This document shows, piece by piece, positions 1-62,502 of a stretch of DNA of 64,000 bases. Position 1 is the stretch's first letter; each line of letters starts with the position of its first letter. This stretch comes from Papaver somniferum (taxonomy: Eukaryota > Streptophyta > Magnoliopsida > Ranunculales > Papaveraceae): positions 158,235,085 to 158,299,084 of the forward strand of contig NC_039367.1 of NCBI RefSeq assembly GCF_003573695.1, in the 5' to 3' direction. Both the position numbers and the translations under genes were made by a program. The notes below the pieces were generated by a model. It saw nothing but the letters and a program-made list of their open reading frames with translations, did no database searches and was not told the DNA's origin.

Positions 1-709
1 ACCAAACTTCTAACACTAGGTTACTTTTAACCTGCGGTTCGGTTGGGAACTTGGTTGCGTTGAAGTTTGCGAACTAACCGAACACACAAGATGTACCCAA
101 ATAAATTGTTAAGTTCAAAGTTCGGTTACCTACCATTTTATCCTAGGTAACCGAACATTACACTGTACGACCAAAACCTCCATTAACGAGCGAGTTTGGT
201 AACCTGCGTGTTTGGAAAACGTAACCGAACTACATTTTCAGGTGTGTTCGGTTACATGTTCTTGACATATGGTAACCGAACTGACCCAAATCTACATAAA
301 AGTTTTCATTTTCTTTGAAAGTTTGGAACAATTCAACCAACATTATCTAAGTTTGAAGCACACCTGGGTACCCAAATACCCTTCCTCTGGTTGTGGTTGG
401 TAAAATCCATCGCTTTTCATGTGTTCCTTCTTCATCTTCTCTAACTTTACTCTCTCAATGATTCTACTTCTTTAAAAAAAAACCATCTAATTTTTTAATC
501 TCACTAATTATCTTTTACTTAATCATCTAACTATTCATTACACTAACTATTATTAACACTAACTAATCATCATCCAAAATTAATCAGGAGGATAATTTAG
601 GTATTAATATAAATATCTAGATAAGGGGTGACCTAGATTTACTTTTAATGTCTTTACCCAAAATAAAATCATGGTCCCCAAAAAAATCAGGATCCCAAAA
701 AAATCGTTC
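1..709. mobile_element. Right part of a GTTCGGTT-word TIR element
   Basis: The first 300 bases carry GTTCGGTTA and its complement TAACCGAAC many times in both orientations. The right end (about 671-709) reads as tandem CATGGTCCCC and AAATCGTTC blocks, the inverse of the ends of the complete family member at 43265-44575. Bases 180-700 closely match 19177-19748. The element ends abruptly against invertase exon 4 sequence at about 710, so it was inserted into that exon. The left end lies outside the window. No coding potential is visible. Family assignment is direct from the sequence; the superfamily (8-bp-type TSD, hAT-like) is inferred from the 43265 copy. Confidence 0.75.
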
Positions 710-6726: not shown

Positions 6727-7275
6727 TGTTGGAAAAAATACAGTTTTATGTGAATAAAAATTACCAATAAAAAGGTTTTTCCAAAAATAAAAACACCTTC
6801 CAAATTTATCTCTTAGTTTTTTACGGGATAAGTTTACCATATATTTTTTGGATTTGGGTTAGGGTTTTATATATGAAGAACCTCTTTTTATTGCCGAGAT
6901 ATATAGAAAAACTTCTTCTTCTTCTATGTTTTTGAAACGAGGGTTTAAATACGTTTCATGTGTTTTCCGCTGCCAAGTTCTAGATAGAATAAGGTTTGAG
7001 TATGCTCTTCAAACTTTATTGAGATTGTTGTATCTTGGAGGCAGATGTCCACTGGGCTATAGCATCATCCTTTTTGGAGTGTAGCAGGACATTCTTGTCT
7101 TAAGGACTGCATGTTGAACATGCGCCTCAATCCACCATTACGAGTATCTTCTTTCTATGGTGTTTATTAGGATGTTCAAGACATCAACAGATGACTAAGG
7201 AGAAGACACAAAAATAAGATAAGTGCCTCTTATATTATTTAGTTGTTTGGTCAATTTTAATTGTTATTCCCAACA
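6727..7275 (+). repeat. 3' LTR of the CMS1-carrying element
   Basis: This LTR starts TGTTGGAAAA and ends ATTCCCAACA, 549 bp. It is followed by the second GTATC target copy at 7276-7280, where invertase exon 3 resumes. Confidence 0.92.
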
Positions 7276-12186: not shown

Positions 12187-12408
12187 GGATCTTGATGATT
12201 TTTTTTTTTTTTTGTGATGAAATGAGAAACTACGACTAGGGTATTTATCATTTATTTTTTAGGAAGCAAGCAAGCAACATAATAAAATAACAATGTATTG
12301 ACAGCTAAGAAAAGGTCCATGAAAAATGGAGTACAAAAGTAAACAAACTAGCTAGAAGCTATCAATAGTCAGTCAACTTTGATTGATTTATTGAATTCCC
12401 AACTGCCC

Positions 12409-14290: not shown

Positions 14291-14292
14291 AG

Positions 14293-14345
14293 AACGATTT
14301 TTTAGGGACCATGGTTTTTTTGAGGGGACCATGGTTTTATTAGGC
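14293..14345. repeat. TIR-like left terminus of the GTTCGGTT family
   Basis: GAACGATTTTTTAGGGACCATGG followed by a second GGGGACCATGG block matches the left end of the element at 43265. The paralogous duplicate at 22785 continues CAGCTGAATAAGGTC without it, an empty-site comparison that places the insertion junction at 14292/14293. The matching right end may be at 19748. Confidence 0.65.
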
Positions 14346-17300
14346 CATCTTCCCTATAGTTATAAGGGGTATCTTAAAGCGTTGAAATGACTAACCTACA
14401 CTTAACCTAATTTAATTTAAAATCAACCTAATAACCACCTATATTTATATTATAAAAAAAAGTGGTGTTTGTGTAGCCTTACAAATCCAACCATCGATTT
14501 CGTCATCCGACGGCGCGGATCGATTCGTTATATGTTGTATATAGACGGCCGTCGGATCGTTGGGTTTCCTGGTTTGTCACGGTCCCGTTAGTAATTTGGT
14601 TTCCTACTGCGAACCTTGATTCTTAATTTATGAGTACCAACGAAAAACTATATGGTTGCCTTGCACAAAAACTATTTCCTTAGGAGTCAAAAGTATATGG
14701 TCGTCCCTCGGATCGATGGGTTTCCTTAATCCTTCCCAATCGTGGGTTTCCTTTATCAATCCGAACTATTTGATATTAATAGGGTTTCAGTTCTTATACT
14801 TTTATTTACTCTTCTCCCTGAACGTTTCTGATTTCATGTTTGCAAGCTCAATTGCGACGGAAGAAAATCTAAAACATCAATCTCCTATAGACGGAAGAAA
14901 ATCATTCATATAACAAGGTTAATATTTTCAATTTATTGAATTCTACTCTCCTCCCTGTACGTTTTTGTACGCCATCATCTATCAATCTTCTACAACATCA
15001 ATCTCCTACAACTTCAGAAAATATGAAAAAGCAACAGGCTTCTTCAAATTCATGCACGCCGGAAAATTAAAAAAAAAAACTGCGAGTTCAGATTCTACGT
15101 CAAACAAAAGACACTGTTCAAAAAGGGTGCCATCACAGGTAATAATTATAATCATCAAATAAAGAAAATCAAAGTTACATATGCAAACCAAAGTTATACT
15201 GACAATTCTTTTCTTCTGCAACATTGTAAACGTTTCAAAACCTCTAAAGACGATACAAGTTGGTTGGTTCTTCTCCAATTCTTTGTTTCTGCAACAATGG
15301 CAGTAGCTAAAGAAGAAAGTTGTGTGTAGCATGAATATTTGATAGCTTGGTAAAGTCGTTATGGGTTTGTTTTCGTTGGACTTCTTTGTAGGGAAACGAC
15401 TTGGAGCAAGAATCGAGCTGTAAGAAATCTAGGTTATTGCTTGACGGTGAGGACAGGGAAGAAACGTGATCTTGCTGCCGTCTTTTTAGGTCATTAATGG
15501 GTGAGTTATCGAGTATTCAGAGTCCGTATATGATCTAGAGATTTGCTTTGGATTCCAATTCTTTGCAGGGAAATCGATTTGGAGTGGCCAATCAAGCCAT
15601 AAAGAGAAAAACAGGACCGCCAATTGAAAGACACACGAAGTGTTCAACAGAAAGTATGAACCATTACCAGCTTAGTTCCACTGGCTCGCTTCCATGGATT
15701 CGTTTGCTGTTTACAAAGAGTTAGATAAGAATTTGAAGTGGAGATGGAACTTAAGATTGGGTAGTATTCACAGATCTGGGTTAGTGTTCAGGGGAGAAAT
15801 CAGATGATGGGAATGATTTTCTGTCACCGTTCCACAAAGATGGATGGAAGAGATTAAGAATGGTTGGAAGAGTTGAAATTGGATTAGAACATCGAATTGC
15901 TAATGAATTTGGATAGCGATTTTGTTGTGTTATTTTGGTTAAAGCTTGCCGATATATCGGGTTAAACTGCTGTTGCAGTGGCGTTCTGCCATTGATTATG
16001 ATATTCATTAATGTCTACTCATGTCTCATTGATTTTTATAGCAGATAGTGGGAGGTAGAAATCATTCGATTAACCAACAACAAGTATGGATTGTTTAACA
16101 ATCAGATAGGAATTTGAGTGATCTTTAATAAAAAAGAATAGTAAATTATTTATGTGCTTCAGTCCAGTGAAATACGACAATTGTAAAGAAGGTGAAAAAG
16201 AATAGTGTTTCCCTTATAACATTGTTGATTTTGGTGGAGAACTAAATGAGAAGCCTGAAAAACGTGAAGCTTTCCTTGCTTCTGTACGTAATAGTGATAG
16301 TAGTAACATCGTTCGTGTTTCTGTCGGTCCTATTGCTCTCCCTGAAGTCCTCATTGGTAACTCTCATCGTTCGTGTTTCGTTTAAACAGTTGTTTCGTTT
16401 TTAGGTTGCAACACATCCATACTCACTGGGCAAACGGAAGGAGATGAGAGTGGTTTTCTAGCAGCAGTGGCATCTGGTGATGGTGGTTATGATACGGTTA
16501 GCCTTTTTTTTAATATCAAGATCTACCATTATTTTCCACAACCTGTACTCTGCTGGTTTTGCGTGTAGGGAGTAAATTCCTTCCTATACAAGCATCCAGT
16601 CTTATGCAACACATAACAAAAATCAAATGAGTATACTGGCTTAAAACATGTGAGTTGAATGTGTGTTGCCTATATTGGGATTTAATCGATTAGAGATTAC
16701 ACTCTGGTGGATTTTTCTCTGTTTCTATATTGCTAATTGTGCGTTCATCCAGCATTGGGACCTTCCAGGGGCAGAAAATTTGGTGTGTCATGATTTTGTA
16801 TCTTTTTTCTTGGTACTTGATAACTACACTGGAATTGTGTGAGACATTGGCATGAGGTTTCAATGCATTGTAGCTAATTAATTTATATTGAATCTCTCAA
16901 TTGGTGGAAGTAGTGGCCACAATTGTCAATAAACAATAACCTTTGAGGGATAACAATGTTTACATGCATTATAGCGATCATAACAAGCAATTACAACAAA
17001 TATGTTAATTGGCATATATAGGCGCAATACTATCAAAATCGTATTGGCGGGATTTAAGGTAGACAGGTATATAGGCGAAAAAGGTAAAAAATATGCAAGA
17101 AAGAACAAGAACAAAGATATAGAACACAACAAAACAAGGTTGGAGGGAAGAACTGAAGCAAATAAATTATAAAGATAAATTTGTATTTGGGATGAAGATA
17201 TCAGGAAGACAAAAAAATTAAAGTAGCTGAAAACAAGAATAACAGTCAAAAAATTTTCTTATATAAGCACAGAAATTAGGAATGAGATAAGATACGTCAA

Positions 17301-17487
17301 TTTTTTGCTGGTTCTCCTATAAATTAAAGTATTTGCATACTGCTTATTTTATGAAAAGTGTGTTATGATTTATTTTGGGTTCCTGTTTCTCGATATTTAT
17401 GTTTATTCTTTGTTTAAAAGGCTGGCTGGACTCTAATTTGTTAGTGTGGCTTAATGAGAACATGTCTTTTTGGTAGGCCTGGACTGC
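14346..17487. other. Long non-coding stretch, possibly transposon interior
   Basis: No frame here has recognisable similarity. A self-complementary CCGACGG block lies near 14505-14560 (TCCGACGGCGCGGATCG and GACGGCCGTCGGATCG). Short ORFs at 14656-14913 and 14965-15162 have low-complexity or unlikely composition. The whole may be internal sequence of a large element bounded by termini at 14293 and 19748, or unrelated spacer. Confidence 0.35.
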
Positions 17488-18035
17488 GAGCCCAGGTTAA
17501 TTTGATATGACCAACAAAACACCAGAGTATGCTTAAGAGGAAACGGTCGGGGTTGGAAGTCCCGGCTAATTTCACACGACCAACAAAATAATAGGGCATA
17601 CAGCCCCGGCTAATTTGACACTACCAACAAAACACTAGGACTTGCTTTAGAGGACACGTCCGGGGATGTAAGCCCCGGCTAATTTAACACGACCAATAAA
17701 ACACTAGGGCATGCTTAAGAGGCCACCCCGGGCTGTAAGCCCCGACTAATTTGACAGGATTAATAAAACACTAGGTCATTCTTAAGAGGCCACGGTCGGG
17801 ACTGTAAGTCCCGACTAATTTTACACGGCTAACAAAATAATGGGGCATACAAACCCGGCTAATTTGACACTACCAACAAAACACTAGGGCATGCATAAAA
17901 GGACATGGTCGGGGCTGTAAGCCTCAGCTAATTTGACCCGACCAACAAAACACTCGGGCACGCTTATGAGGCCACGGGCGGGGCTGTAAGCCCCAAATAA
18001 TTTGAACCGACCAACAAAACACTGGGGTCGCAGGC
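17488..18035. repeat. 68-bp minisatellite with 44/45-bp short variants
   Basis: Units begin CCCGGCTAATTTGACACGACC, continue AACAAAACACTAGGGCATGC and end with GGTCGGGGCTGTAAG. About seven long units (about 68 bp) and short units (about 44-45 bp, at about 17562 and 17810, with a further partial one near 17991) occur. Short units lack the CTTAAGAGGCCACGG part and carry AAATAAT. GC content is much higher than in neighbouring DNA. Confidence 0.9.
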
Positions 18036-18158
18036 CCTAACTAACTTATAAGATCGATGTTTGATAGTTCTAATCTAATTAGTTTTGTTAATGATTAAAA
18101 TTTTATGGGAAAATACTGACCGACTGACCAAACAACAACAACAAAATCGAAAAAGGTT

Positions 18159-18182
18159 GAGCCCGGGCCTTAGGCCCGGGTC
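18159..18182. repeat. Perfect GC-rich inverted repeat
   Basis: Arms AGCCCGGGCC and GGCCCGGGT flank a TTA/TAA centre. It lies between the minisatellite and the CCA-rich tract and could form a strong stem-loop. Confidence 0.85.
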
Positions 18183-18198
18183 ATACCTAGTATATATA

Positions 18199-18395
18199 TA
18201 ACCACCACCTCCTCCCACCACCACCGCCCACCATCGGTGATTATCACCTCCGATTACCATCACCACCAACCACCCATTACCACCACCACCTCCTCCTCCC
18301 ACCACCGTCCAGCACCGCCGATTACCACCACCACCATTTCCAATTATCACCACCACCAACCACGGATTACCATCACCACCAACCACCACCACCTC
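18199..18395. repeat. CCA/CCG-rich trinucleotide tract
   Basis: Imperfect CCACCA repeats are interspersed with ATTACCACC and GCCGATTACC units. The minus strand reads as a Gly/Val-rich frame, which I take as a repeat by-product. Confidence 0.85.
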
Positions 18396-18539
18396 TATAT
18401 ATAACTTAATTTAAATCATTAACAAAGACATTCTCACAAACCAATTACTTGTCATTTGTTTTGGTTGAAAAAATGAGAAGTAATCATCAAAATGAGTTGA
18501 AAATGGAAATTGCAGAGAGTCTAATGGAGTTTTTTTTTT

Positions 18540-19748
18540 CCAGAGAAAAGTTCGGTTACGTCGCAAAAAACAAGTCTCGGCCGAACTTTTAGTTCGGTTA
18601 CATCGCAAAACGTTCGGTTTCTTCGCAAAAAGTTCGGTTATCACGAATTAATTTTTTCTTAACCGAACTCAGAGTTCGGTTGATTCGCAAAAAATACTTT
18701 TAACCGAACTCCTTATATTAGAACAACACAAGTCCATAAGTTCGGTTCCTCCGCAAAATAAAGATATCACCAAACTTTAGTTTACGAAAATAATGAGAAG
18801 TCCAAAAGTTCGGTTCGTTCGCAAAAATGTTAAGTTTTTACTTTACCCGAACTTCACTCAGATATCGAGTTCGGTTCGATATGATGTTGCGTAAAAGTTT
18901 GTGAACCAACCGAACTTCTTACACTTGGTATAATTTTTTTTTTACGTAAAGTTCAGTTAGATAGTTGGTTGGTATGAAGTTTTCGAACCAGTCGAACAAT
19001 GTACACTTTGTAAAATCTTATGTTCACGTAAAGTTCGGTTAGATATTGTTTGCGAACCAAACGAACTTCTAGACCCTAAAGTTCAGTAACATTGCGAACC
19101 AACCGAACATTACTCTGTAAATCCTATAAACAAAGTTCGGTAACATGTCTGTTAACCGAACAACTAAAAACCTCCATTAACGAGCGAGTTCGGTAACCTG
19201 CGTGTTTGGAAAAAGTAACCGAACTACACTTTCATATGTGTTCGGTTACATGTTCTTCACATAAGGTAACCGAACAAGACCAAATCTACTTCAAAAATTT
19301 AATTTTTTTTGAAAATTTGGAGCAATTCAACCAACATTATCTAAGTTTGAAGCATACCTGGGTACCAAAATACTCTTCCTCCGATCTTGTTCGGTTACAT
19401 GATTCAGATGAGCCATCAATTGAATCACTTGAATACTCAAGCTTAGTGAACTCAATTTTTTTTTCCATGTTTTTCTTCTTCATCTTCTCTAACTTTACTC
19501 AATAATTCTACTTCTTTTTAAGAAAACCCATTTGATTTTTTAATCTAGCTAATTATCTTTAACTTAATCATTTCACTAATGATTATACTAACTAATATTA
19601 ACTAACTAATCATTACCCAAAATTAATCAGGAGGGTAGTTTAGGTATTAATATAAATATCTAGATAAGGGATGACCTAGATTTACTTCTAAATGTCTTAC
19701 TAAAAATAGAACCATGGTCCCAAAAAAATCATGATCCCAAAAAATCGT
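18540..19748. mobile_element. GTTCGGTT-word TIR element (second copy)
   Basis: The span is dense in GTTCGGTTA and TAACCGAAC words in alternating orientation between 18548 and 19290. Bases 19177-19748 closely match 180-709, including the segment GATAAGGGATGACCTAG and the terminal ACCATGGTCCC and AAAATCGTT blocks. The right end is at about 19748. The left boundary is uncertain: it may be near 18540, or the terminus at 14293 may be the partner. No coding frame is recognisable. Confidence 0.7.
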
Positions 19749-19912
19749 TATGTGAATAAAATTCATCTGGGCTTTCTTTATAACAATGTTAAGCTGGCCC
19801 GTAATAGAATTTCAGTAAGTACACTATTCAAAGCCTTTTTTTTGTTTTTCTAGTTTTAGTAAGTCTAATATATATATATATATTTTGTCAGACAGCTGGG
19901 GTTAAGAGGATC

Positions 19913-34899: not shown

Positions 34900-36113
34900 C
34901 CTGGCTAAATTAAGGCCTATAGGATTTAATTGGGGCCTATAGCTAGATGACAAAAAAAAATCATTGAATAGTAAAAAAAGCCACCTCTTATCCAATTATT
35001 TTAAAAAATGACTAATTTACTCCTTGATTAATTAGCTTTAATCGGGTGATTAATTGATGTTTAATCAAATTAAACTAAAAATTAATTAATCTTGATTCTT
35101 CATCAAAACGTGATTTTTTTTTATTTTTTTTTGAAAAAAAAACAAACCAGAATCGGTATATGTTCGTGCTCTCATAAACCGATTCTGGGTTGATTTTTTC
35201 AATTCACAAAAAAAAAGCAGAATTCGGTTTTTACAAATGTATACAGAAAACCGATTATGGGAAAGAAAAAAAATCAAACATAATTTAAATAATACTCGAT
35301 CTGAAAATGAGTATGATTTCATACTCGATTTCATTTCGCGTATAAATTCATATACTCATTTTGAGATCGAGTATCAAATCATACTCGTTTTGAAACTGTG
35401 TAAAATCATACTGATACTCATTTTCAATTCGGGTATAACCAGAATCAGTTTACACGATGCACACATAAAAACCGATTATTTACATTGCAAAACGGGAATC
35501 GGTTTATAAAAGTGCTCATGTAATCCGATTCTAACAGAAAAAAGATACAAAAAAATTTCTTACAACAATCAGTTTACTTGACAAAAATATAAAATCCGAT
35601 TCTAGCATTATACATCAACAATCGGTTTTTAGAAGTGCTAATGTAATCCGATTATGGTCGAACCATAAAACATACCAAGGACAATCGGTCTTTGTGGGCA
35701 TGAATATAAACCGTTTCTATCTGCAATCGGATCACATATACATTAACGTTGATCGATTATGGTAAACCCGGAAAAATTTGATTTCAAAATTTTCAATTTT
35801 TGAGCGATTGCATGTTACTAAAACCTAGTTTAGAGGATTGAGTTGAGAAGAAAAGAAGAAGAATTAGTTGAAGTGAAAATGAAAATGAATTTGATTTTGA
35901 TTTTAGTTTTTAATTTTTATGATTTTGATTTTAGTTTTTAATTTTATGATTTTGATTTTAGTTTTTAATTTTATGATTTTAGTTTTTAGTTTTATTATTA
36001 GAATTTAATGGGGACACATTTGTAGTATTAGTATTTGATGAAGCGTAAGTTCGTAATTTCATCTCTTAATAATCACTTTTTTGTCGTGTAGTGTAGGCCT
36101 CAATTTAGCCTGG
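34900..36113. mobile_element. AATCGGTTT-word TIR element
   Basis: Terminal inverted repeats CCTGGCTAAATTAAGGCCTA (34900-34919) and, at the right, CCAGGCTAAATTGAGGCCTA read inverted (36094-36113) match at 18 of 20 positions. Flanks ATATGTTT and ATATGTGT are consistent with an 8-bp target duplication. The interior (35140-35760) holds AATCGGTTT/AAACCGATT words many times in both orientations, plus GAGTAT/ATACTC words near 35290-35420. A 27-bp AT-rich repeat follows. A similar element begins near 60557. Confidence 0.8.
35885..35998. repeat. AT-rich tandem repeat (about 27 bp unit)
   Basis: Units of TTTTGATTTTAGTTTTTAAT repeat about four times inside the AATCGG element, with small length changes. 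Confidence 0.85.
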
Positions 36114-43264: not shown

Positions 43265-44575
43265 GAACGATTTTTTTGGGGACCATGGTTCTTTTGGGGA
43301 CCATTGTTCTATTTTGGGTAAGACATCTAGAAGTAAATCTAGACACCCCTTATCCAAATATTTTTATTAATACCAAAGTTACCCGTTGATTAATGTATTC
43401 TTCCCCAAACTCAATTTCAAGATAAAAATGGTTGATTTTACCAACTACAACCAAAGAAAGACTATCTAGGTACTCAGCCATACCTAAAAATTAGTTAATG
43501 TTGCTTACAATGGTCAAAACATTCCTAAAAAATGTAAATTTTTAAGTAAATTTCGGCTAGGTCAAGAGAGTTTGGTTACCTGATGCAAAGAACATGTAGC
43601 CAAACATATCTGGAAGTGTAGTTTCGATTACCATTTTGAAAGTTGCAGGTAACCGAACCCACTTTTAATGGAGGTTTTGTATAGTTCGGTTAACAAAATT
43701 CAAACATGTAGCCGATTTTTTTTATAGGATATACAGAGTAATGTTCGGTTGATTCGCATAACTCCATCAAACAAATTTCCTAGCCGAACCTTCTGTACAA
43801 AAATAATTTATCCAAGTGTTAAAGTTCGTTTCCATCAAATAAAGTTCCCAACCGAACTCAACATATGTGTTTACTGAGTAGAGTTCCGTAATCAAATTTT
43901 TTTTTACGAACCAACCGAAATCAGGGTTTTTTGTTCTATAAAAGAGTTCGGTTAGGGGACAAAATTTTCCAACTAACCATACCAGCCGAGCACAATATGT
44001 TAGTTTTTAGAGAGGAGTTCGGTTAGTATTTTTTTGTGCGAACCAACCGAACTTAGCATTTATGGTTCTATACAGGTTCGGTTACGAGAAAAAAAATTTG
44101 TAATAGCCGAAGTGTTCTTTGTGTTCTTGGTTTCAGAATGTTCGGTTAGCAAACTAGGTATCTTTAAACTACTGCTAACCGAACAAACTACCGTAACTTC
44201 CATTTAAACCCTATTTTGATCATTTCTACTCAAATTTTTCGATCAAAACGAATTAAAAGTGATAGGTTTTTCAATTGAACGAGTAACATCACGAAAAAGG
44301 GGAAGAAAAAGAGAATAACTTTTTTTTTTCAAAACTAAAATTTTTCGTTGCCTCTCATCTCCTTTATATTTTTGTTTATAATTATGGTTAATGATTTATT
44401 TAGATTAGATATAAACGTCTAGGTTTAGGTGGCTATTAGGTTAGTTTTAATTTAAATTAGGATAAAAGGTAAATTAGTGTTTTGCTAACTTTAGGACACC
44501 CCTTATAAGTATAGGGAGGTTGTCCTAATCAAATCATGGTCCCCCAAAAATGCATAGTCCCCGTAAAATCGTTCC
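43265..44575. mobile_element. GTTCGGTT-word TIR element, complete
   Basis: The left terminus is GAACGATTTTTTTGGGGACC, and the right terminus read inverted is GGAACGATTTTACGGGGACT. Both are followed by a second GGGGACC/GGGGGACC block. TTAAAAA flanks both sides (43258-43264, 44576-44582), with one more matching-class base possible. The middle (about 43560-44200) holds more than a dozen GTTCGGTTA/TAACCGAAC words in both orientations. The 7-8-bp duplication fits a hAT-type element. No coding frame. It lies in opposite orientation to the copies at 1-709 and 18540-19748. Confidence 0.88.
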
Positions 44576-49041: not shown

Positions 49042-50776
49042 CACTACGACAAAACACGGTTTTTGCAATGAGAAATAATGTCGCAAATATTTAATTTTAC
49101 GTCAGAAATATAATTTTCTGAAGTATTTTAATTGTCGGTTTGTGCGTTATAAAAAGAGGTGTTGCAAATACATTGTCCGACGCTAAAAGCGTCGAAAATT
49201 CGGAGGAGCTTTTGTAGCATAATTTTTCTATTGCAATTATGTATTTATGTCATAAATAATTCATATGCCACGTAAGTTATTCTTTATTTTATTTTTAATT
49301 TTTTTTTTTAAATCATTTTATTACTGGATAATGTGTACTATTAGATATTTTTAATTTTGATAATTTTTTTTTCTTAATAAATCGCATTTTTATAATTGAG
49401 AGTACTAAGATAAATAAAATTGTGCTGTTAATAGCAAAAGTTATGCCATTGAATAATTTGAACACAACTGATTAAAAATGATCACATACATTCCAGAATA
49501 ACATAAATTACACTAGCCTTCAAACAAAAAAAAATACAATTTAAATAAAAAATCCTTGACAAAAATTCGCCATGTTGTTAAACCAAATTGTCATACATTT
49601 CAGAACTAAACTGGTTTCTCTCAACAATACAACAAAATTTAATTTCCAATCGTCATAATTATTGCTCTAGATCTGGAATCTATTCTTTGAGTTGAAGTCG
49701 ATCATCACTTTGAAGGATTAGTTGTCTTCATTACCTGTAAAATGAATTCCACATACAGAGATAAAAAGTGAAAACAAAAGCCCATGTATTCAATCGCGAT
49801 TTTGATAAATCCAAAGTAACAGAGAAGGAATACCAATTTGAGTGTTCTTATCGTTCTCCCTTTGCATTCTTGATTACATCTAGGAAAAAAAAAAGTCTAA
49901 ATCTAACTGTAAATAATTTTAAGTAACACAAAATCTTTATCTAAAAAAGAAAAGAAAAACATCATCAAAAGTTTAAAAGTCTGTGCAGTTAGATCAATAA
50001 CTTACCTTGTTAGATCCATAGTTTTGTCGAATTTCTCCATGGAAATGTTGTCCCGTCGCACCAGTGATATAGCCGTACAAAATACATAAAAAATCAGAAA
50101 AAACAGAAGAGAAAACAGAAAGGAATTTCCTTCTACTGTGTGAGAAGTATCTTGAATCTACTAGAAGAAGATTTGATGGTGGTGGTTGCGGCTATATTTT
50201 GAAGACATCTGTTTAGAAGATAGAAGAAGGAAAAAGAGAAGAATGACTAATTGATATTTTACTCTACATATGGAAAGCCTAGTCTTTTGTCTCATACGAA
50301 TATTTGGGAAACAAAAGGGGAAGTGGGCGGTTATTTGATTTAAGCGTGGTCCATTTTTATTTTATTGTGGTAATTTTTTGATTAGCATGTGGTCACTTGC
50401 TTGTTAACCCAATTCCTTTTTTCCGGAAAGAAATATGTGGAGCAATCAGAAGAAAGATTTGGATGGAAAAAATAATTAACATGTAAGATTTTTTATAATA
50501 AAAAAATATTTTTTAACTTCATATTTTTTGAGAAATCATTTTTTACGGACTTAAAAACGGCAAAAAAAAAATCTCAAAGGATTTTATTCTAAAATTTAAT
50601 TTAATTTTTATTTACCACGCCAATGTAGGTGTTGCAAGTTCATATGTTCCTGCTATCCTTGGCCTTAAGTAACGCAAATATCTTCAACGTATGATACGTT
50701 GCAAATGAATATTATTTTTGACGCTTTTTATAATGTTACAAAAATAATGTCATAAATGCGTCTGTTTGTTGTAGTG
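49042..50776. mobile_element. Non-autonomous CACTA element, 1.7 kb
   Basis: It begins CACTACGACAAAACA and ends TGTTTGTTGTAGTG, so the inverted termini are CACTACRACAAA. A 3-bp target duplication AAT flanks it (49039-49041, 50777-50779), as expected for CACTA (En/Spm) elements. Subterminal words such as GTCGCAAAT, GACGCTAAAAGCGTC and TGTTGCAA recur near both ends. No transposase is visible. Confidence 0.9.
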
Positions 50777-50814
50777 AATGGAGGACTAAACCCAAATATT
50801 AGGTCCAGTGTATA

Positions 50815-51385
50815 GGCGTAGTGGGACGGACTATCGATCAAAATTTGAATGATTTGGTCGGCGACCAAGACCAAACCCAAATATAGTCGGGCGTTTATAT
50901 AATGTCCGCCTACACAACGGGCGTTGATATAATGTCCGCAATTCATCGAGCGTTTGTAAAGTTAACGCCTGATGTAGGGGCGTTCGTAAAGAATTCGCCT
51001 GGAACGGACGGAGGTTAAATGTATGCCCCATGCGGCGTACACAAAGTTAACGCCTGACTACCAGGCGGGGATAAACTTAACGCCTTTAGTGGGCGTTGAT
51101 ATACATTACGCCTCAAGCTCACAATTAGACCACCATCACATGGGGCGGGCTTTATACCTCCACCCCATTATTATTTTTTTTTTATTTTTATTTTATTTTT
51201 TGTTTGAATTCCTCCGAGCGTAATCTTTATTAACGCCTGATTCCAGGCGTAATCTTTGCAAACGCCCCATCCCAGGCGTTATCTTTATCAACGCCTGATT
51301 CCAGGCGTAATCTTTATCAACGCTTGAAAGTTCAGACGAACTTTATATTAACGCGCGATCAAATATACTCTTTTCCCACTACGCC
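50815..51385. mobile_element. GGCGTT/AACGCC-word element
   Basis: Inverted termini GGCGTAGTGGGA (50815-50826) and TCCCACTACGCC (51374-51385) enclose about 570 bp with many AACGCC / GGCGTT words in both orientations, several as compact hairpins such as ACGCCTGATTCCAGGCGT (51233 and 51292 regions). Direct repeats GGACTAAACCCAAAT (50783-50797, 51393-51407) lie just outside. No target duplication is certain. No coding frame. Confidence 0.6.
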
Positions 51386-51624
51386 ACATAACGGACTAAA
51401 CCCAAATTTGATCTTTTTTTTAGTCTTTGGTTATACTCGCACCACTGCAGTTGCTCTTAGGGATTAAACGTATCACTTCTTTTTTTGGTTCAGTTGGTAA
51501 ACTAGCCCGTGTTTGCACGGGTTTACAGAACTTGTTGTATATTAAGGTAGCTCTGAACTTTACACCCACCACAATAACATCAGAACATTTTAGAAATTTT
51601 TAACATACAATTTTACTAATAACA
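51386..51624. other. Upstream region of the first cysteine-rich peptide gene
   Basis: A short spacer that should contain promoter and 5' UTR. No convincing TATA box is chosen. Confidence 0.35.
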
Positions 51625-52043
51625 ATGGCTTGCAGAAAAGTAACAGCTATTGCTTTCTTCGTCATGTTCATCGTTTTTTGCTCAGGTTAGTATGATACAA
51701 ATTATAACATATCATAGTTGATCCGTTAATATTGCTCATGAATTTTGAACTCAAATCATCATTTATTTTATGTTTAATATTTGGCTTTCTGAGTCCATAC
51801 GTGGGTTCATTTATCAATTTGTTTTGAAATAACACATATTTAAGCAGATATTAGCAGCATGATGGTGGCAAACGCAGAAATTTACAAATGTTGTACCGAT
51901 AATCACATCGGTAGCTGTCGCGTAGGTAACCCAGATGATGAAGCGAGGGCAGATCTTTGTGCAGTAGCAGCTGTTTCAGGAATAAAGATAACGGGCACTG
52001 CAAGCTTGAGGGTAAATTGCATTACTGCCACTGCAACTGTTAA
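51625..52043 (+). pseudogene. Secreted cysteine-rich peptide gene, frameshifted copy
   Basis: Exon 1 (51625-51685) encodes a signal peptide (MACRKVTAIAFFVMFIVFCS). A GT-AG intron (51686-51847) follows, then exon 2 from 51848. Relative to the intact paralog at 58288-58884, exon 2 is one base shorter, with the lost base near 51950. Before it the frame matches (DISS-MVANA, then CC); after it the paralog's cysteine pattern continues in another frame to a stop at 52041-52043, with nine cysteines in total. Read as is, the frame runs on to 52110 with most cysteines lost. Probably a recent pseudogene of a defence-type or signalling peptide. Confidence 0.8.
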
Positions 52044-52110
52044 AGATATCCCTCAATGCAAAACCGTCGTACTGCCAATAGTATTGGAGAAAAATTTTGT
52101 TTCAGCATGA

Positions 52111-53363
52111 TTGCTTAGGACTATTTTATTACTCCAAATTATTTATGTAATATTGCTAGTACGTAATAAAACTGATGAATTATCAATTGCTGAAGTTTAT
52201 TTTCGTGAAATCGTTCGTTGTATGATTTTCCGCTCACCATTTCAATATTTTGGGTCAGTGCAGATTTTTGGTCTTCCAGGCTCATAGGCCTTGATGCACA
52301 GTCAGGGTTCACTCTAAATTTTGTGTCTAGGACCAGCGGACAAATTTTGGGGCATAATTTACGCCAGAAGGAAGATTTTTTTATCACCGGGTACATTTTG
52401 GCCCAACGCGGAAAGTATGCATGTTTTGAGAGAGAGGGGTAATTAGTTTTTAGGTTATGAATCCGAATTTAGGTCCCTATGAGAATTTCACAGAGCGTGC
52501 AAATTTTGATCAGACAGGATAAGTTTTATAGCTTAAGCTAAAGTAAGAAAGGGAAAAAAAGCCCCGCAATGTTGGATAGAGGACATAAGGTTTAACCTAC
52601 TGGTGGTTGTCAGGCTGATTATGGCTTTCTGCCTCCTAAGGTTTAACCAACTCCATTATTTGTGTATCTTGTTTCCCGAATTCTTTCAACGAAACTAAGA
52701 TGCTCTTATAAGGGGACATACAGACGAATTCTTTCCCTATGATTTAGCTGCAGGGAGGCCTTGTCTAAACACCCGTGATTAAAGAAAGAAAAACATCCAA
52801 GATAATCAGATAAACTAAATCCTAAGAGCGTATCTACAACAGTTTCAGCCTGTTGTATCTTGGAAAAATTTAGAAAAGCAAATGGATATACCTAGAATCA
52901 ACGGTGTAGGCTACCATCGAACTATTTTTCCGTTGATATTGGCGATTATTTAGTTACTGCTGATATTGATATCCCACACATGTCCACCTTCACACCCAAG
53001 TGTTTTTGTCTGTTTCCAAACTAGATTAAGGCTGGTCTATGTAATGCTGCAGTTCCCAAATATGGGATTCTCTCCCATTTAGTCTCAGCAGTTATTTCAA
53101 AATATTGGTAATAAAAATGTGCAAATAAAATTTTGGGGGGGATATATGGGACAAGAAAACATCCCTAAAAGGGTAACTTTATGGTCACAAGAATTTCCAA
53201 ATTGACCAAAGCAAAAAATATGATGATTTTATATTGGCCTTGAATACTGAACCACTATTTTTAACAACATGGTCGAGAGTGATCCCCTCCCCTATCCCAA
53301 GGCCTTTTTTTTTATGTGGGCATGTCAAAGTAGTAAAATGCCAACATGTCAAATATACCACTT
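52111..53363. other. Spacer
   Basis: No supportable gene. Some blocks (52200-52400) resemble sequence downstream of the paralog near 59050-59250 (TTTATCTTCGTGAAAT, then GGTC/T-CCAGG), so the duplication that made the peptide pair extended past the genes. Confidence 0.45.
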
Positions 53364-54691
53364 AGTTATACACGATGGAGATTCCAGCGAGCGATAAAAT
53401 ATCCATCACTATAAAGATCACTCGCTGGTCAGTCCACCTTTAGCGCTGGTCTTTTCATCACCCGTTGACTAGACCATCGCTCAGCAGTTTTTCTCCCAAC
53501 TATAGATACTCATCTTCAAATTCATTTTGACTCGCATCTGAATTTTTAAATCTCTCTAAAATTTCTCAATCTCACTCATGCACATCTTCGATACTTTTCA
53601 CTATTCTTCCATTTCTTCAAAGAGAATAACTGAAAATGAACACGGATGAGTTCATAGGAAACAAACATGTTGTCGAAAATCAAAGAGTACGCTAATCGAG
53701 CCAATGTGCAAAGTCGAATAAGAAGGCGGTTACCAGAATTTACTATTGCGGAACATGAATGTATTTGTAGCAATTAGGGTTTTTTAACGAAGACTCTCTT
53801 CTTTGCAGTTTCATTCAAAACCCAAATATTTTGGGAAAAATTTTATTAGGAAATTTCAAGAACAAACGATGAACCTCAGCAAGCGAGACATAAGCGCGTT
53901 GAGTCACCTCTTCAGTGTGATCCATAATAAAATTATTAAGTATATTGCTTTACTAATGAAAGCGGGTAGAAATATGAGGATGGTAAAACCATGATGGACA
54001 TTGAACAAAAGTGTCAGGTGGAGTGGCGTCGCGTCTACGAAAAAGACTTTCAATATAGAAGTTTCTTTGAGATTTTAAAAGTGTTTCCCAAATATAATCT
54101 AACGTTTATATTTTAAAATATAGACTTCAAAAATAAAAATCTGGGACAATGTTCTTCATCTTGTTTATCTTCTTGATTTCACATAACTTCCAATCGATCC
54201 GTTCATGAATGGAATTTCCTTTATTTATCTTCTTCTTTTCCTTGAAATTTATATTGCGTTGATTTTTCTTTCCTTAAACACTTCTTTGCCTTTTCTTAGC
54301 TGCCGGTTTGAGTTGGTTAATATCCAACACTTGAAAACTTCTTTTCTTTTTACCTAATTCTTTATAACTATTACATATATCTTCTTAAAACCACCTTCAA
54401 TCACTACTCCAGAAAAATCTTGTTGTGTTTCCAAATATAGTTGGGTTTGAAATCATTCCATTTGAGAATTTTTGAAACAATTTAGATTTAGAAAGAGAGA
54501 AAAAGAGAAATTTTTGTATAAATATTTTGGTGTAAAACTTTAATTTTGAAATTAGCTATTGATAGGCGAGAAATAACTGGTCGTTGGTGCTAGTCACTAG
54601 AGCGAGCGATATTAATATTATATCAAGGAATATGTACTTTATTGCCAGCGTTATTGATAATATCACTCGCTAGGAATTCCATCACTTAACT
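53364..54691. mobile_element. GCGAGCGAT-word TIR element with ORF remnant
   Basis: Imperfect inverted termini: AGTTATACACGATGGAGATT at the left; the right end read inverted is AGTTAAGTGATGGAATTCCT. Inside both ends, words GCGAGCGAT/ATCACTCGC and CCAGCG/CGCTGG recur in both orientations (53390-53480 and 54560-54680). The centre carries a decayed protein-coding remnant (53650-54115). No clear target duplication. Confidence 0.7.
53650..54115 (+). pseudogene. Remnant of a SANT/NAM-associated-type transposon ORF
   Basis: Frames read GNKHVVENQRVR, FIRKFQEQTMNLSKRDISAL, then HNKIIKYIALLMKAGRNM, and EWRRVYEKDFQYRSF with FEILKVFPK. The order (R-loop helix, KF-like helix, then a conserved W/F-x-x-LK-x-x-PK end) resembles the plant NAM-associated / trihelix-like proteins often linked with Harbinger and hAT transposons. 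Stops and frame changes show decay. The family call is tentative. A related remnant is at 61310-62152. Confidence 0.45.
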
Positions 54692-55245: not shown

Positions 55246-56042
55246 TAGAGGTGTAAAACGTGTCGGCCCGGCACAGTCCGACACACGAAGTCGCGTGTTT
55301 CACGTGCCATGTGTCGTGTTGGGTTGTGCCAACGATTTAAATGTGTTGTGTCGTGTTGTGCTTTACTAGTCAAAAGCTAGGCACAACACAGCCCACTGGC
55401 ACAACACGTAACGTGATGTGTCGTGCTGGCAAACGTGCTATAAACAATTTGATATCACTTAATGGTATACATTAAGTCGGATATTATCACGATATTTAAA
55501 TAGACAACATATAATTTGAAATTTTTTCAGAATTTATTTCAAGTAAAATTAACAAGTTTATTCAATAAAAAGAAATATCACACCAAATATAAAATCGGAT
55601 CACTGTCATGTGAATTAATGTTCTAGTCAAGTATATATAGGTAATGACATTATAACAACAATATTGAAATATATTTTCCAAATAGTTAGGTATTATATGT
55701 GTTGTTATAAAAATAAGCCAACATAAAATGTCCGAAACTAGCTAGAATAGTGACTTTTTTGTGAAATATACACAAAATTTGATGTATCATATCTTGTTAT
55801 ATTATGTATTTGTGCATGTTATGACGTGCTTTCTTAACGTGTTGTGCTGGGCTGGCCACGTGCTTATCCGTGTCGCGTGCTGTGTTGTGCTACTGTGCTG
55901 ATTAGGCTAACCCAGCACAACCCACAAAACTAACATGCTGGGACGTGTTGGGCTAAATCACGTGCTGGGTTAGGCTGGGCTCCGATTTTAACGTGATTTG
56001 CTGGGATGTGCTCGTGCTAGCACAACCCAATTTACACCTCTA
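55246..56042. mobile_element. Non-autonomous hAT element, 797 bp
   Basis: Inverted termini TAGAGGTGTAAA at both ends. A perfect 8-bp target duplication CATCTATG (55238-55245 and 56043-56050). Near both ends, words of the GTGTTGTGCTGGG/CCCAGCACAAC type occur many times in both orientations. The middle is AT-rich and non-coding. The 8-bp duplication and TAGNGGTG termini are established hAT hallmarks. Confidence 0.95.
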
Positions 56043-56050: not shown

Positions 56051-56705
56051 CCACCATTGTCTTTCTCGGGGGCGCATCTCTTCCCTATCAGTTTCATACT
56101 CTCGCTCTTGATAGAAGGTAAGCTTATTAAGAAGGCAATGTCTTGAATCTTGATAGAAGATGTGTTTAAAGGATATTTCTGTTAGTTTCGGGTGTAAATG
56201 GTTTCCTTCCATTTCAACCATGGTAATTCTTTACTTAGTCCACTTGAACCATGCATTACACTTTTCTGGGCATATGGGCCGTCTACTTTTTACGCATATT
56301 TTATATTATACATATCCGAATTACATTGATCTCATAACTACGAATTGGCCTCTTTTCTGTTTTCTTCTAATCACCAAATACAAAAAGCACACACGTGCTG
56401 ATTTAGGTGCATCAGAAAAAATAGAAAGATTAGGACCCCTATTTTGAAATCCCGGCTCCGTCATTGTCATAGAGTGATCAATCTGACAATGAATACCCAA
56501 GTTAAGTTCATTTAAACATGTGAAGATGGTTTCAAAATGGTAATGGGGATTGCATCAGCACACCAAGCTCTCTTCATGCTTCGGAAAGAGAAAGAAAAAA
56601 AGATAACAAGGTAAGAGGTTCTATGGTAACAAAAGTTCCATCAGTGGTTTTTACATAGTAATAACATTCTTTAAGAAATTTTTACGTGGATATTAAACCT
56701 GGTTT
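56051..56705. other. Spacer
   Basis: No supportable gene. Confidence 0.4.
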
Positions 56706-57659
56706 GATTAGGGTATGCCCAAATTAATTAGAGTATACCAAGTGAGACAAAATAAGCATTTTAAAGTAAAACACAAAACCCCTTATCCACATATTTACAA
56801 AAATGGCTAATCTATCCTTGATTAATTAACACTAATAAATGTGATTAGGATAATTAATTAAATTAGTTAATTAGTTGATTAAAATTTTGAAATTATGTTT
56901 TATATTAGATTGAACTCATGGATGTGAGTAGATTTTTTTTTTGTTTTTCTTTTTTTGTTTTAAGAATTCTACTTGTTACGGAAATGGCTAATCTTACTAC
57001 CCAAACACTTATAAATATGGGATTGTAGAGCTGCTGAGCAATTTTATACTCAAAATTATAGAAGGAATCAACATTTTCAGTTCTGAAAATATGAAAAGTC
57101 GGCAAGGTCTACGGATGAAGAACATGCCGACTATATCTGGCCGGCAAGGTCTGCGAACGAAGAACATGCTGTCAACTTATGCCCGACAAGGTGGATAAAG
57201 AAATACCCTGCCGACTATATGATTTTTGACATACAGAGAAGGTGTTACAAATGCATGATTAGTCGGCAAGGTATTGATTTCATAACCTGCGACTAAAATA
57301 TAGTCGGCTAGGTATAGAGATGGATATCTTGCCGACCCTGTAACTGTTAATTTCAGAGATGAAAAGTCGGTATGGTATTCAACCTTATACCCTGCCGATT
57401 ATATTTTGGTCGGCAAGGTCGACAAAAAATACCCTGCCGACTTTTGGTTCGTTTTGGTTCATCGTTTTTTTTTTTTATTTCACATGTATAGTTACAGTGT
57501 AGAAGAATGATTTTGATTTTTTTGTTAATATGTTTTGGTCGGCATGATCTTTTAGTATGGGAAATTTGGTCTTTTAATACCTTTTAGACACCCCTTAGCA
57601 CACTAGTTTGGATAGGAATAAAATGGGTATACCCCAATTAATCTGGGTATACCCTAATC
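56706..57659. mobile_element. GTCGGCAAGGT-word TIR element
   Basis: Long inverted termini: GATTAGGGTATGCCCAAATT continuing to about 56742, and the inverse GATTAGGGTATACCCAGATT at 57623-57659. The middle (57096-57440) holds about a dozen GTCGGCAAGGT / ACC-TGCCGAC words in both orientations. No target duplication could be identified at the deduced ends. No coding frame. Confidence 0.8.
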
Positions 57660-57670
57660 TCGCTAGGATA

Positions 57671-57994
57671 GGATACATTAATTAAATACCCCTAGAATTT
57701 AAGACCTTCATAAATACCCCTCCATTTTATTTAAATACTCCTAAGAGGTATATTTTAAGTGGATAATGAAAATGAACTAGTACTTTTTGGATAATAAAAA
57801 TGAACCGGTATGTTCTTGACGCGTTAAAACGTCAACCCAACCTCCTCCGGAAGTTGAATTGACTTAATATAATTTTTTATGTGCCAAAAATTAGGTCCCA
57901 AAAACCTAAAATAAACCCCTTAGGGGTATTTATAAACCCCTTAAGGGTATTTGTGTAGACCCCTAAAAAGGAGGGCTATTTATACAATTTCCAC
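57671..57994. mobile_element. MITE with ACCCCTCC/GGAGGGGT inner repeats, copy 1
   Basis: About 320 bp matching 60890-61183 along its length, from ATACATTAATTAAATACCCC to CAATTTCCAC. Inner inverted blocks AATACCCCTCC and GGAGGGCTATTTATA. A 34-bp block near 57765-57795 is partly duplicated. The target duplication is not visible here. Confidence 0.8.
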
Positions 57995-58287
57995 TTGGTT
58001 GAAAGAGAGAAATTATAGGCCATAATTAATTAAAAGAAACTTCCATTTAAGTTAGTAATAGTTTCTTGGATTTTTTTTTAATAGGTAGCTATAGTAAATA
58101 TTGTATTTAGCCATATACACTAAATCATAATCAGAGCTATTTATTACGATTGATCTTCTGATATTCTTGACCTATATAAATAGGTAGCTATAACTTTGGA
58201 CGTTATATTCTTCAAATTGACATTAGATCGTTTTAGAGTTTTAAGATTATATATCATAGTAGAAATTTTACAAATCACAATATTAAG

Positions 58288-58884
58288 ATGGCTACTAAAG
58301 AAGTGAATGCTATTGCTCTCCTTGTCATGTTTATCGTTCTCTGCTCCGGTTAGTATGATACTTTCGACAATAAATAACGGTTGTTTTGATAATATTCTGC
58401 ATTAATGAGAATTATGAATTCAAATCATTATCTTTTTCATTACTATTTGTATTTTACTTAACTTTGGTTGTTGAGAATTTCGAATTCAAATCATTTTATT
58501 TTTCAATTGTTTCTATTTTACTTAAACTATAAACACTCAGTAGAATTTAGGTGTAGACGAATTTATAGTCAAATCCCAGCTTATGTATATCTGTTCATAT
58601 AAATACGTATTTTTAAAATCAATTTAATAATTAACGTCTATTCCCTCGTAATAAAATATTAACAAATTTCTTGCTATATGTATGCAGATATTAGCAGCGT
58701 GATGGTAGCAAACGCTCAGAAATACAAATGTTGTACCGAGCACCGTATGGCTAGCTGCCGCACCGGTGACCCAGCTGAAAACGCGAGATGCAGCAGTATG
58801 TGCAGTAACAGATGCTTTAAGGACGGATCAAATGGATTGTGCAAGCTTCGAGGTAATAAGCATTACTGCCACTGCAGATGTTAA
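58288..58884 (+). CDS. Secreted cysteine-rich (10-Cys) peptide, intact copy
   Basis: Exon 1 (58288-58348) encodes the signal peptide (MATKEVNAIALLVMFIVLC). A GT-AG intron (58349-58687) follows, then exon 2 (58688-58884), giving 85 residues. The mature part begins near QKYKCC and has ten cysteines in the spacing CC-x(7)-C-x(9)-C-x(3)-C-x(3)-C-x(7)-C-x(7)-C-x-C-x-C. This pattern resembles plant knottin- or defensin-like secreted peptides, which act in defence or cell signalling in the apoplast; I cannot place it in a named family. A frameshifted paralog lies at 51625-52043, and flanking sequence is partly shared, so they arose by local duplication. Confidence 0.82.
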
Positions 58885-60556: not shown

Positions 60557-60889
60557 TAAGCTAATTTGTGGCCTAGTGTGATTATTTTCGGTCTAGGACT
60601 ACAAGATAAAAAAGAATGAAGTAAAAGGGATACCCCTTATCCAATTATTCTACTAAAAGGCAAAACTACCTCTAATTAAATAGTGTTAATTTGGGTGATT
60701 AAATGATTTTTAATCAAGTTAATCCTGAAATCAATTACCATTAATTTTCATCATCAAAACTTGAAAAAAAATTAATTATTTTTTTCAAAAACTAAAATCA
60801 TAACCGGTTGATGTTAGTACGGTCGTAAAAAAAATGAAGTAAACCCATAATCGGGTTTTTTCAATACCCACATCAAACGATTATCAGAA

Positions 60890-61183
60890 GGGTACATTAA
60901 TTAAATACCCCTAGAATTTAAGACCTTCATAAATACCCCTCCATTTTACTTAAATACCCCTGAAGGTATATTTTAAGTGGATAATGAAAATGAACTAGTA
61001 TGTTCTTGGCGCGTGAAAACGTCAACCCAACCTCCTCCGGAGGTTGAATTGACTTAATATAATTTTTTATGTGCCAAAAATTAGACCTCAAAAACCTAAA
61101 TAAACGCCTTAGGGGTATTTATAAACCCCTTAATGGTATTTGTGTAGACCCCTGAAAAGGAGGGGTATTTATACAAATTCCAC
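60890..61183. mobile_element. MITE with 9-bp target duplication, copy 2
   Basis: 294 bp flanked by TTATCAGAA on both sides (60881-60889, 61184-61192). The sequence corresponds to 57671-57994. The 9-bp duplication is typical of Mutator-like elements. The inserted-into sequence rejoins cleanly across the element. Confidence 0.9.
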
Positions 61184-61309
61184 TTATCAGAATCGATATT
61201 TAGGGATGTCCACATAATCCGATTATACCTTACTTTCAGAAACAAAATATTCATAATATAGTTTAGTATGATTATCGAATTACATATATATGATTCAGTA
61301 TAGGGAATT

Positions 61310-62152
61310 CTAGAATTTGACACAACAAATGTTCGTCAATGAACCTTTGAGCACGTCGGTACAACGTCGTATATTCTTTGTAGTGAATGAACTTAGTTTC
61401 CCCATTACGAATTCTCCATAGTCCATTGAAACGTTCCAGCTGAAATTCAATGAATTCGTAAATGTTAGTATGTGAAATTTTAACGATGGCATAAGTATAA
61501 ATATTACTCCCTCTGTCCTAAAATTTCTGTTTTCTATTCTATTTTCGTTTATCCTAAAATACTGGCCAACTTCTGTTTATAGTCATATTTTTTAGTCAAA
61601 CTCTCAAATATATCCTTCAAAATTTTACAATTATAAAATTATTTTAAATATCACCAATCTAAATATTAAATGATATTTTTCTCAATAGGAAACAAATCTA
61701 CTAAATCAATCCATAAATATTTTTATTTTTATCTTCTATTTAAATATTTCTATAAATATTATAATTACCAATATATTTTTCTTACATACTCCATATACTC
61801 CTTTTAATTTTAGCAATAACATAGCATTTAATAAGGATAGTTTTGTAACTCCTCCGGTCTCCTTAATATCTTGACTTAGTCAAAGCGGACTAATAATTTA
61901 GGACGAAGGGAGTATTGGATTACTCACTTTTTCCCTAAGAGGAGCTTGTGGATGATGTTGGTACACCATATTTCTAACTTTAATATACTCCCGCGTTGCA
62001 CTTTTTATATAGTTGAATCGAAATGCCAAGTCTCTCCATTTGCGGTTGTTGGGATTCGCGGTACGCTTGTAAAAGAACTCTTTAACTCTCTTCCAAAACA
62101 TTGAATAGATTTCAATCGTACGTTCACGGAATATTAGCAAACGACGAGACAC
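61310..62152 (-). pseudogene. SANT/NAM-associated-type ORF remnant inside the AATCGG element
   Basis: 61898-62152 reads MFWKRVKEFFYKRTANPNNR, KWRDLAFRFNYIKSATREYI and KVRNMVYQHHPQAPL, matching the layout of the NAM-associated / trihelix-like proteins (FW-x-RV, basic loop, L-x-x-RF-x-x-I, then Y/H-P). The frame continues beyond the Stowaway insertion at 61310-61492 (FIEFQLERFNGLWRIRNGE in another frame). It is broken and partial. It is similar in type to the remnant at 53650-54115. Confidence 0.5.
61507..61912. mobile_element. Stowaway-like (Tc1/mariner) MITE
   Basis: Inverted termini CTCCCTCTGTCCTAAAAT and, at the right read inverted, CTCCCTTCGTCCTAAATT, flanked by TA on both sides (61505-61506, 61913-61914). 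These termini and the TA duplication are the Stowaway signature. At 406 bp it is a long member. Confidence 0.88.
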
Positions 62153-62502
62153 AAATCTTCATACGGTTCCCATTTCACGACATGCATATCTTCTTCCGGA
62201 TCCCGTTTCATTTTCCAGGCTAAGCGTGTGATATGGGAGTGGCTCAAAGGTCGTCCTTATAAAGATATAAAGACTCAACGACTATATTTTTTTCAAAATC
62301 ATATAAAATAGACCTCTCGGGAATCGGTTCTTAATAATCCGATTCTTGGCAAAAAAATCTTTACAGATAAACTGCCACTTTTCCTTGCAAGAATCGGATT
62401 ACATGTGATTTCCACATAAATAGATTCTAAAGGTTGTCAAAATATGCCTCTCAACAATCGGTTTTTAATATTTCACTTGAAATTTGATTCTTGTCAAAAA
62501 AT

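Follow-up and report, generated by a model that had tools for sequence, protein, structure and literature searches.

Introduction

In VANDAL21 and VANDAL6 of Arabidopsis, elements of the Mutator-like element (MULE) superfamily, a family-specific motif is dense in the non-coding regions, including the introns of VANC21 and VANB21 (Hosaka 2017, PMC5735166). The motif differs between related families and the arrays change by gain and loss of tandem repeats (PMC5735166). The subterminal repeats of CACTA elements (Tgmt* and Tgm1 of soybean, En/Spm of maize) are bound by TNPA-type proteins (PMC2613891). Here we describe a stretch of 64,000 nucleotides of Papaver somniferum (contig NC_039367.1, positions 158,235,085 to 158,299,084; hereafter the window), in which related MULE families carry dense arrays of a family-private word arranged as inverted pairs, or dyads. 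We place at slightly better than even (about 0.52) the probability that these intron dyads form a family-specific self-recognition address, read by the element's own protein and serving anti-silencing in the manner of VANC.

Plant MULEs carrying a plant mobile domain (PMD) gene together with the transposase gene, often in antisense, have been described (Ikeda 2017, PMC5418596; Dupeyron 2019, PMC6446971). Ikeda et al. speculate that captured PMD serves anti-silencing in MULEs, the accessible text naming no target (PMC5418596). PMD and VANC or anti-silencing are treated separately in what is accessible of PMC6419827 and PMC8616336; PMC10398659 was also drawn on. A literature search that covered few subscription journals returned no account of such arrays in MULEs, or in miniature inverted-repeat elements of this plant. 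A first-pass annotation of the window, made from the sequence alone, knew of no standard description of the class; this was too strong, as the VANDAL/VANC arrays and the subterminal stem-loop arrays of CACTA elements are close precedents.

Results

A k-mer scan, unbiased and independent of the words listed in the first-pass annotation, was carried out in 800-bp windows across the 64 kb and scored by Poisson p. ACCGAAC (the GTTCGGTT-type word) was returned at 43401-44200 with p 5.9e-20, the best p in three simulated order-2 Markov windows being 2.3e-6. The short-word array annotated at 43560-44200 is thus confirmed. This span is the array and not the whole element, since the element bounded by terminal inverted repeats (TIRs) runs from 43265 to 44574. 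The GTTCGGTT-type word was enriched also at 18601-19400 and 1-800, and further arrays were found for AATCGG (35001-35800), GTCGGCA (56801-57600) and AACGCC (50601-51400), at the elements designated B, C and F. Exact GTTCGGTT occurs 36 times in the window: 10 copies in element A3, 18 starting at 18550-19389 (A2), 7 at 37-274 (A1) and 1 elsewhere. The three clusters represent one family, A.

With up to two mismatches allowed, A1 carries 8 words, A2 25, A3 21, B 20 and C 12; F carries 21 at up to one mismatch in its 6-mer. Exact counts of the longer words of the first-pass annotation were low (AATCGGTTT, 8 in the window with 5 of them in B; GTCGGCAAGGT, 3). Shuffled words (300 shuffles) gave means of 4.1-4.5 for A2 and A3. 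This control is weak, its maxima of 23 and 22 coming near the observed 25 (A2) and 21 (A3), likely because some shuffles resemble the real word. Four of the five words put forward in the annotation form arrays. The fifth, GCGAGCGAT, was rejected, being sparse over 1.35 kb (element G, Table 1) and missing from the list of the k-mer scan. The words had been described as lying in both orientations, and this can be sharpened: neighbouring words alternate and form convergent pairs at a near-fixed distance. Orientation switches between neighbours number 7/7 in A1, 20/24 in A2, 18/20 in A3, 16/19 in B, 10/11 in C and 13/20 in F.

Each site consists of a word, a spacer of free sequence of near-fixed length and the inverted word. 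Convergent gaps in the window are 16-17 nt between 9-mers in 7/7 dyads of B, 11-12 in 4/5 of C, 9 in 6/7 of F and 16-20 in 7/9 of A3. Within an element the words are near-identical from site to site, with more variation in A3 (59-100% by position, at up to two mismatches). Most flanking positions stand at background identity, roughly 20-45%, except for the base that adjoins the word and for the partner word at its fixed offset. In L049, a long copy of family A described below, the gaps between 8-mers (up to one mismatch) measure 20-21 in 10 of 16 dyads, 29-31 in 4, 11 in 1 and 14 in 1. The A gaps thus group at 11, 20-21 and 29-31, in steps of ~10 bp or about one helical turn. For this periodicity, Rayleigh tests on deduplicated exact-word dyads gave p 1.6e-3 in L049 (n=8), 4.0e-6 in the long copies plus window (n=15) and 9.2e-6 in all A loci (n=24). 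Divergent gaps gave p 0.088 in L049 (n=6) and 4.9e-4 in all A loci (n=27), or 2.8e-4 to 2.8e-3 with stricter deduplication (n=17; periods 10-11). All these p values are indicative, since tandem duplication has left related dyads partly dependent on one another.

The words of A, B and C have a common TCGG core at 26-29 bp spacing, set in private flanks. The commonest letters around it are AGT-TCGG-TTA in A, AnAA-TCGG-TTTA in B and AnAG-TCGG-CAnGGT in C; the F word, GGCGTT, is without this core. Of the 436 convergent TCGG..CCGA pairs in 50 A loci, 143 are spaced at 28-29 and another 76 at 37-39. The spacing is 26-27 in 47/72 pairs of B, 27-28 in 4/6 of window C and 26-28 in 18/30 of ten C loci. 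These counts are not independent, the loci of each family being homologous to one another. None of the 7 pairs in five background stretches, taken from the window as far as 56.7 kb, is spaced at 26-30. With each dyad counted once, 13/15 from the B loci, from window B and from the B-like element D stand at 28-29 (5/6 with stricter deduplication).

The position of the arrays was examined in longer copies from the genome (2.715 Gb, 34,283 contigs searched). Exact matches to the A TIR pattern number 1,335 (639+696); its reversed control has none. Among the matches listed (contig C1), 11 convergent TIR pairs less than 10 kb apart were picked by eye, disregarding the words; all 11 of these elements carry 12-33 exact words, and all except L048 have a perfect 8-bp target-site duplication (TSD). 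L049 measures 7,845 bp and has GAACGATTTTTT TIRs and a perfect TSD, ATATTTTA. Its open frame of 746 residues contains the MULE domain PF10551 (E 9.6e-27). A PMD gene lies on the opposite strand, and its joined exons, assembled into a protein from separate open frames, cover positions 16-347 of the 347-position profile (1.3e-45, 156.5 bits). L049 is a candidate autonomous relative of the short elements and also carries the word arrays.

Splice sites, introns and gene models were read from the sequence. The words of L049 cluster at 746-1230, between PMD exons 1 and 2, and at 6909-7438, between transposase exons 1 and 2. All 27 exact words fall in these two inferred introns (1,374 nt); the inferred exons (5,371 nt) and the remainder of the element contain none. 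Of the 33 words in the long copy L048, 10 lie between transposase exons 1 and 2, and 18 between exons 1 and 2 of the PMD gene, whose decayed 3' part holds the other 5. In the window, a transposase exon 1 remnant stands directly before the A3 array (Table 1) and another is present in A1 at 364-417 (tblastn E 2.2e-5); in A2, tblastn with L049 exon 1 gave no significant match (E 0.26). As the end of exon 1 adjoins the array in A3 and A1, the A3 array is most simply the former transposase intron 1. The array at 43560-44200 most likely represents a MULE transposase gene's first intron that has been retained. Short A copies, 43265-44574 among them, appear to have arisen by internal deletion, with the TIRs and the array intron left in place.

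The B TIR pattern has 28 exact places in the genome. Nine of ten B loci taken by TIR alone carry 9-21 AATCGG in the 2 kb read, and L067 carries 1. The B copy L066/L069 holds a degraded MULE transposase with 32% identity to that of A (E 3.3e-70; PF10551 3.1e-8, SWIM 6e-4). In its 9.1-kb stretch 9 of 11 AATCGG words lie within the 522-bp inferred intron 1 of the transposase; the right TIR was not found in this stretch. The C TIR pattern has 35 places, from which ten loci were chosen by TIR alone. One of them, L071, encodes a MULE transposase that shares 35-41% identity with the A protein (tblastn E 4e-57), and the 2.1 kb read there shows no array and only 2 GTCGGC. The stretch that follows the transposase of L049 in the same frame (L049:3997-4599) has homologous DNA in L048 and a 40% protein match in L071. 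A Pfam scan of it returned 0 families; a sequence motif suggests that it is OTU-protease-like.

The first-pass annotation had noted different termini for the elements. In a self-comparison of the window with shuffled controls, the left arms of A, B, C and D proved homologous (z: B-D 25, B-C 21, A3-B 10.6, A1-C 10.2, A3-C 8.5, A3-D 6.9, C-D 6.2). Some pairs were not significant (A2R-B z 1.5, A2L-B z 0.9), and for the right arms of B and C even the best matches were weak (A3R-CR z 4.4). Arms and transposases together place A, B and C in one MULE lineage, and the homologous left arms rule out convergence of unrelated elements for A-D. The arms of F, of a hAT-like element and of repeat E gave z <=2.6 against A-D, and F apparently has the same dyad pattern in a different lineage.

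Assignment to the MULE superfamily rests for A on the PF10551 domain of a long copy with the same TIRs and on the 8-bp TSD, for B on the MULE domain of L066/L069, which has the B TIR and array, and for C on the transposase of L071, which has the C TIR. Among B elements the 8-bp TSD is perfect in L063, 7/8 in L061 and the window copy and 4/8 in L065. TSDs of C are weaker than those of A and B (L070 7/8, L079 6/8, window copy 4/8). CACTA membership was rejected, the elements being without CACTA ends and without a 3-bp TSD. hAT-type termini have the form YARNG; A has an 8-bp TSD, but its termini are GAACG and CCTGG and its transposase is that of a MULE, and hAT membership was likewise rejected. 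The TSD range given for MULEs is 8-11 bp (PMC6446971).

The elements of the window are collected in Table 1. A3 is flanked by the 8-bp TSD GTTAAAAA / CTTAAAAA, with 7/8 bases equal. Two junctions lie at, or within 3 bases of, breaks in homology to paralogous element-free DNA: homology of the A1 side to the stretch at 10221 starts at 712, 3 bases beyond the A1 end at 709, and at the left end of A2 homology to the paralogous region stops at 14291/22796. In A2 about 4 kb of other sequence separates the left arm from the array, and the TSD matches at 6/8 bases only. The left arm of D is 70% identical to that of B over 199 columns.

Table 1. Elements and array features in the window (window coordinates).
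Feature	Position	Strand	Remarks
Element A1	1..709, truncated by window start	-	same family and word as A3
Probable element A2	14292..19750	none	right end approximate (~19750); array 18550-19397
Element B	34900..36113	+	word AATCGGTTT; TIR CCTGGCTAAATT; TSD ATATGTTT/ATATGTGT, 7/8
Element A3	43265..44574	+	non-autonomous MULE; TIR GAACGATTTT...AAAATCGTTC
Transposase exon 1 remnant in A3, directly before array	43394..43477	+	tblastn, L049 exon-1 residues 54-81, E 1.3e-7
Array of GTTCGGTT (A word) dyads in A3	43551..44184	none	k-mer scan, word counts, spacing
Element F	50815..51385	none	GGCGTT dyads; TIR GGCGTAGTGGGA; arms unrelated to A-D
G, word GCGAGCGAT	53387..54680	none	2 exact, 8 at <=2 mismatches; too few for array
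Element C	56698..57667	+	word GTCGGCAAGGT; TIR CCTGGnnnGATTAGGGTAT; flanking TSD weak, 4/8
D, decayed B-like element with AATCGG words	60559..62480	none	broken up by other repeats; ends not fixed

Other repeats were also recovered. The hAT-like element at 55246-56042 has TIR TAGAGGTGTAAA, a perfect 8-bp TSD (CATCTATG) and GTGCTGGG/GCACAAC words near both ends. In having a short word repeated near the ends it resembles the MULEs described here; it differs in that the orientation of the words does not alternate (5/13 switches) and in its TIR. The k-mer scan listed GCACAAC and CAGCAC at 55.2-56.6 kb (hAT-like), the tandem array AGCCCCG at 17.2-18.0 kb, AAATACCC at 57.4 kb, AGGGGTAT at 60.4 kb and CGTACC at 63 kb. 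A decayed tandem array of ~69/113-bp units (AGCCCCGGCTAATTTGACACGACC) occupies 17480-18030 within the long A2. Two copies of a short repeat, 86% identical and rich in GGGGTATTT in both orientations, lie at 57670-57996 and, inside D, at 60889-61185. At 63150-63337 there is a ~92-bp repeat with GTACGCGTACC words, around which no TIRs were noticed, no search aimed at TIRs having been made. The paralogous segments 51609-52302 and 58264-59162 (69-70% DNA identity) contain putative genes for small secreted cysteine-rich peptides. Paralogous stretches with open frames occupy 7257-12258; going by a sequence motif, the frames presumably resemble GH32 invertases or fructan hydrolases.

Discussion

The first-pass annotation had suggested that the arrays are perhaps binding platforms, each for one transposase. 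The anatomy agrees with platforms for one protein each: dyads at fixed spacing, spacers at background, phasing of ~10 bp in A, conserved words and no covariation. We consider it probable that the arrays are binding sites for a protein. Its alternative suggestion was hairpin-rich loci that generate small RNAs. In this reading the inverted words would form foldbacks of RNA or DNA, hairpins feeding small-RNA production or affecting splicing. The arrays do fold strongly as RNA (window array z -8.0, L049 transposase intron z -10.2; in either case none of 20 shuffles was as stable). Longer arms are predicted for some L049 dyads, and the arrays, being inside inferred introns, are probably transcribed. 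However, in an alignment of 39 A copies (L027 was left out as too short) the 1,448 cells of convergent dyads contained 198 single changes and one double change, which was non-compensatory, with 6.9 doubles expected; compensatory doubles numbered 0. Divergent pairs showed 5 compensatory and 4 non-compensatory doubles, 9 in all, with 8.7 expected if changes are independent. Complementarity in the 4 nt inside or outside the word was not beyond that of shuffled partners in any of five sets, and hairpin loops this large would not have to be of constant length. Hairpin arms are thus rejected as the conserved unit. As pairing stops at the word, covariation is absent and spacing in A changes by steps of about one turn, dimer sites of a protein are favoured over hairpins. 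Foldback as the explanation of the arrays appears improbable; some small chance of a small-RNA role persists, since the arrays fold well as RNA, as inverted words would.

Tandem duplication helped to build the A array, where a higher-order period of 63-134 bp is visible. If units holding an inverted pair of words had simply been duplicated and then drifted neutrally, alternation would follow from a unit with one pair. Against such decay, the spacers have drifted near to background while the words are near-identical, and similar geometry is present in three families with different words. In the 39 A copies, identity is 0.922 in word columns and 0.868 in spacers, a difference reached in 0/360 non-zero circular shifts, and the excess holds in each base class. 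Neutral decay is the least probable of the explanations considered. The main rival is a transposition platform, in which the words serve in cis for the assembly of the element ends by the transposase or a TNPA-like accessory protein, without a role in silencing. TNPA prefers inverted pairs, and TnpA drives demethylation. Retention of the arrays by non-autonomous copies, as in all 11 TIR-paired A elements among the matches listed, fits this explanation, and so do the family-specific CACTA words, in both orientations and forming stem-loops, of which soybean Tgmt* has 12 at the right and 2 at the left end (PMC2613891). The poppy arrays, however, are in introns and do not abut the TIRs (those of L049 are ~550-600 bp from the ends), the words are not within the TIRs, and in A each of the two genes has its own array. 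We regard a pure transposition platform as unlikely, about on a par with one case in four.

According to the self-recognition address, an element-encoded dimeric protein, either the PMD protein or the transposase, would bind the dyads of its own family. The bound protein would keep that family unsilenced and expressed, as VANC does, and may possibly also help transposition. Anti-silencing as the service rendered by the arrays is a tentative proposal, somewhat short of even odds. A narrower version, which we think doubtful, would have the PMD protein act as a dimer against silencing, recognising by their sequence the private dyads in the intron of its own gene and in that of the transposase gene. 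This would constitute a VANC-like self-address outside the VANC family, with the TCGG spacing kept and the flanks diverging together with the protein.

Several observations weigh against the self-recognition address. PMD may not be the binder, since it was found only in A, the PMD gene of L049 carries in-frame stops, and no PMD gene was found in the 9.1 kb of the degraded B copy L066/L069. Only 5/10 of the TIR-selected C loci carry an array (at least 6 GTCGGC) within ~2 kb, and the inferred intron positions come from A and B. Beside the arrays of window B and C, tblastn with A exon peptides detected no remnant of an exon. D has 0/2 TCGG..CCGA pairs at 26-30 spacing. The A dyads share ancestry through tandem duplication; stricter deduplication lowers the convergent phasing to p 0.005-0.012 (n=11; periods 10-11), and divergent gaps in the long copies plus window reach p 0.039 only (n=17). 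The difference in word conservation is modest, in copies collected by similarity. Finally, VANC21 motifs are in one orientation, whereas the words here form alternating fixed-spacing dyads with a shared TCGG core.

In other respects the poppy elements resemble VANDAL/VANC, with which they share the MULE superfamily and, in A and B, a family-specific motif array in non-coding parts. The second gene is VANC (DUF1985) in VANDAL and PMD here, and the TSD is 8 bp here and 9 bp in the VANDAL group where the accessible text indicates it (PMC6446971). DUF1985 in the PMD gene of A scored 15.1 bits (18.4 for one exon alone), below the cut-off of 35.1, and suggests at most a weak kinship of PMD and VANC. 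With DUF1985 below threshold and the match to PMD as given above, membership in VANC is not claimed, and the two may work alike. The likeness to CACTA elements consists in a motif that is private to the family, occurs in both orientations as a succession of stem-loops and diverges between families of one species (PMC2613891); CACTA elements differ in their termini, 3-bp TSD, subterminal arrays and transposase superfamily. PMD-carrying MULEs have the same gene pair as A, and the accessible parts of their descriptions do not mention target-site arrays (PMC5418596, PMC6446971).

The dyads described here are densely arrayed, private to their family and present in three related families of a single genome; intronic in A and B, they are candidate targets for the PMD proteins of MULEs. 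If PMD or the transposase binds them, the elements would possess a form of self-recognition, specific to each element, in which the core stays fixed while evolution changes the flanks, and possibly also a means of lifting silencing that is addressed by sequence.
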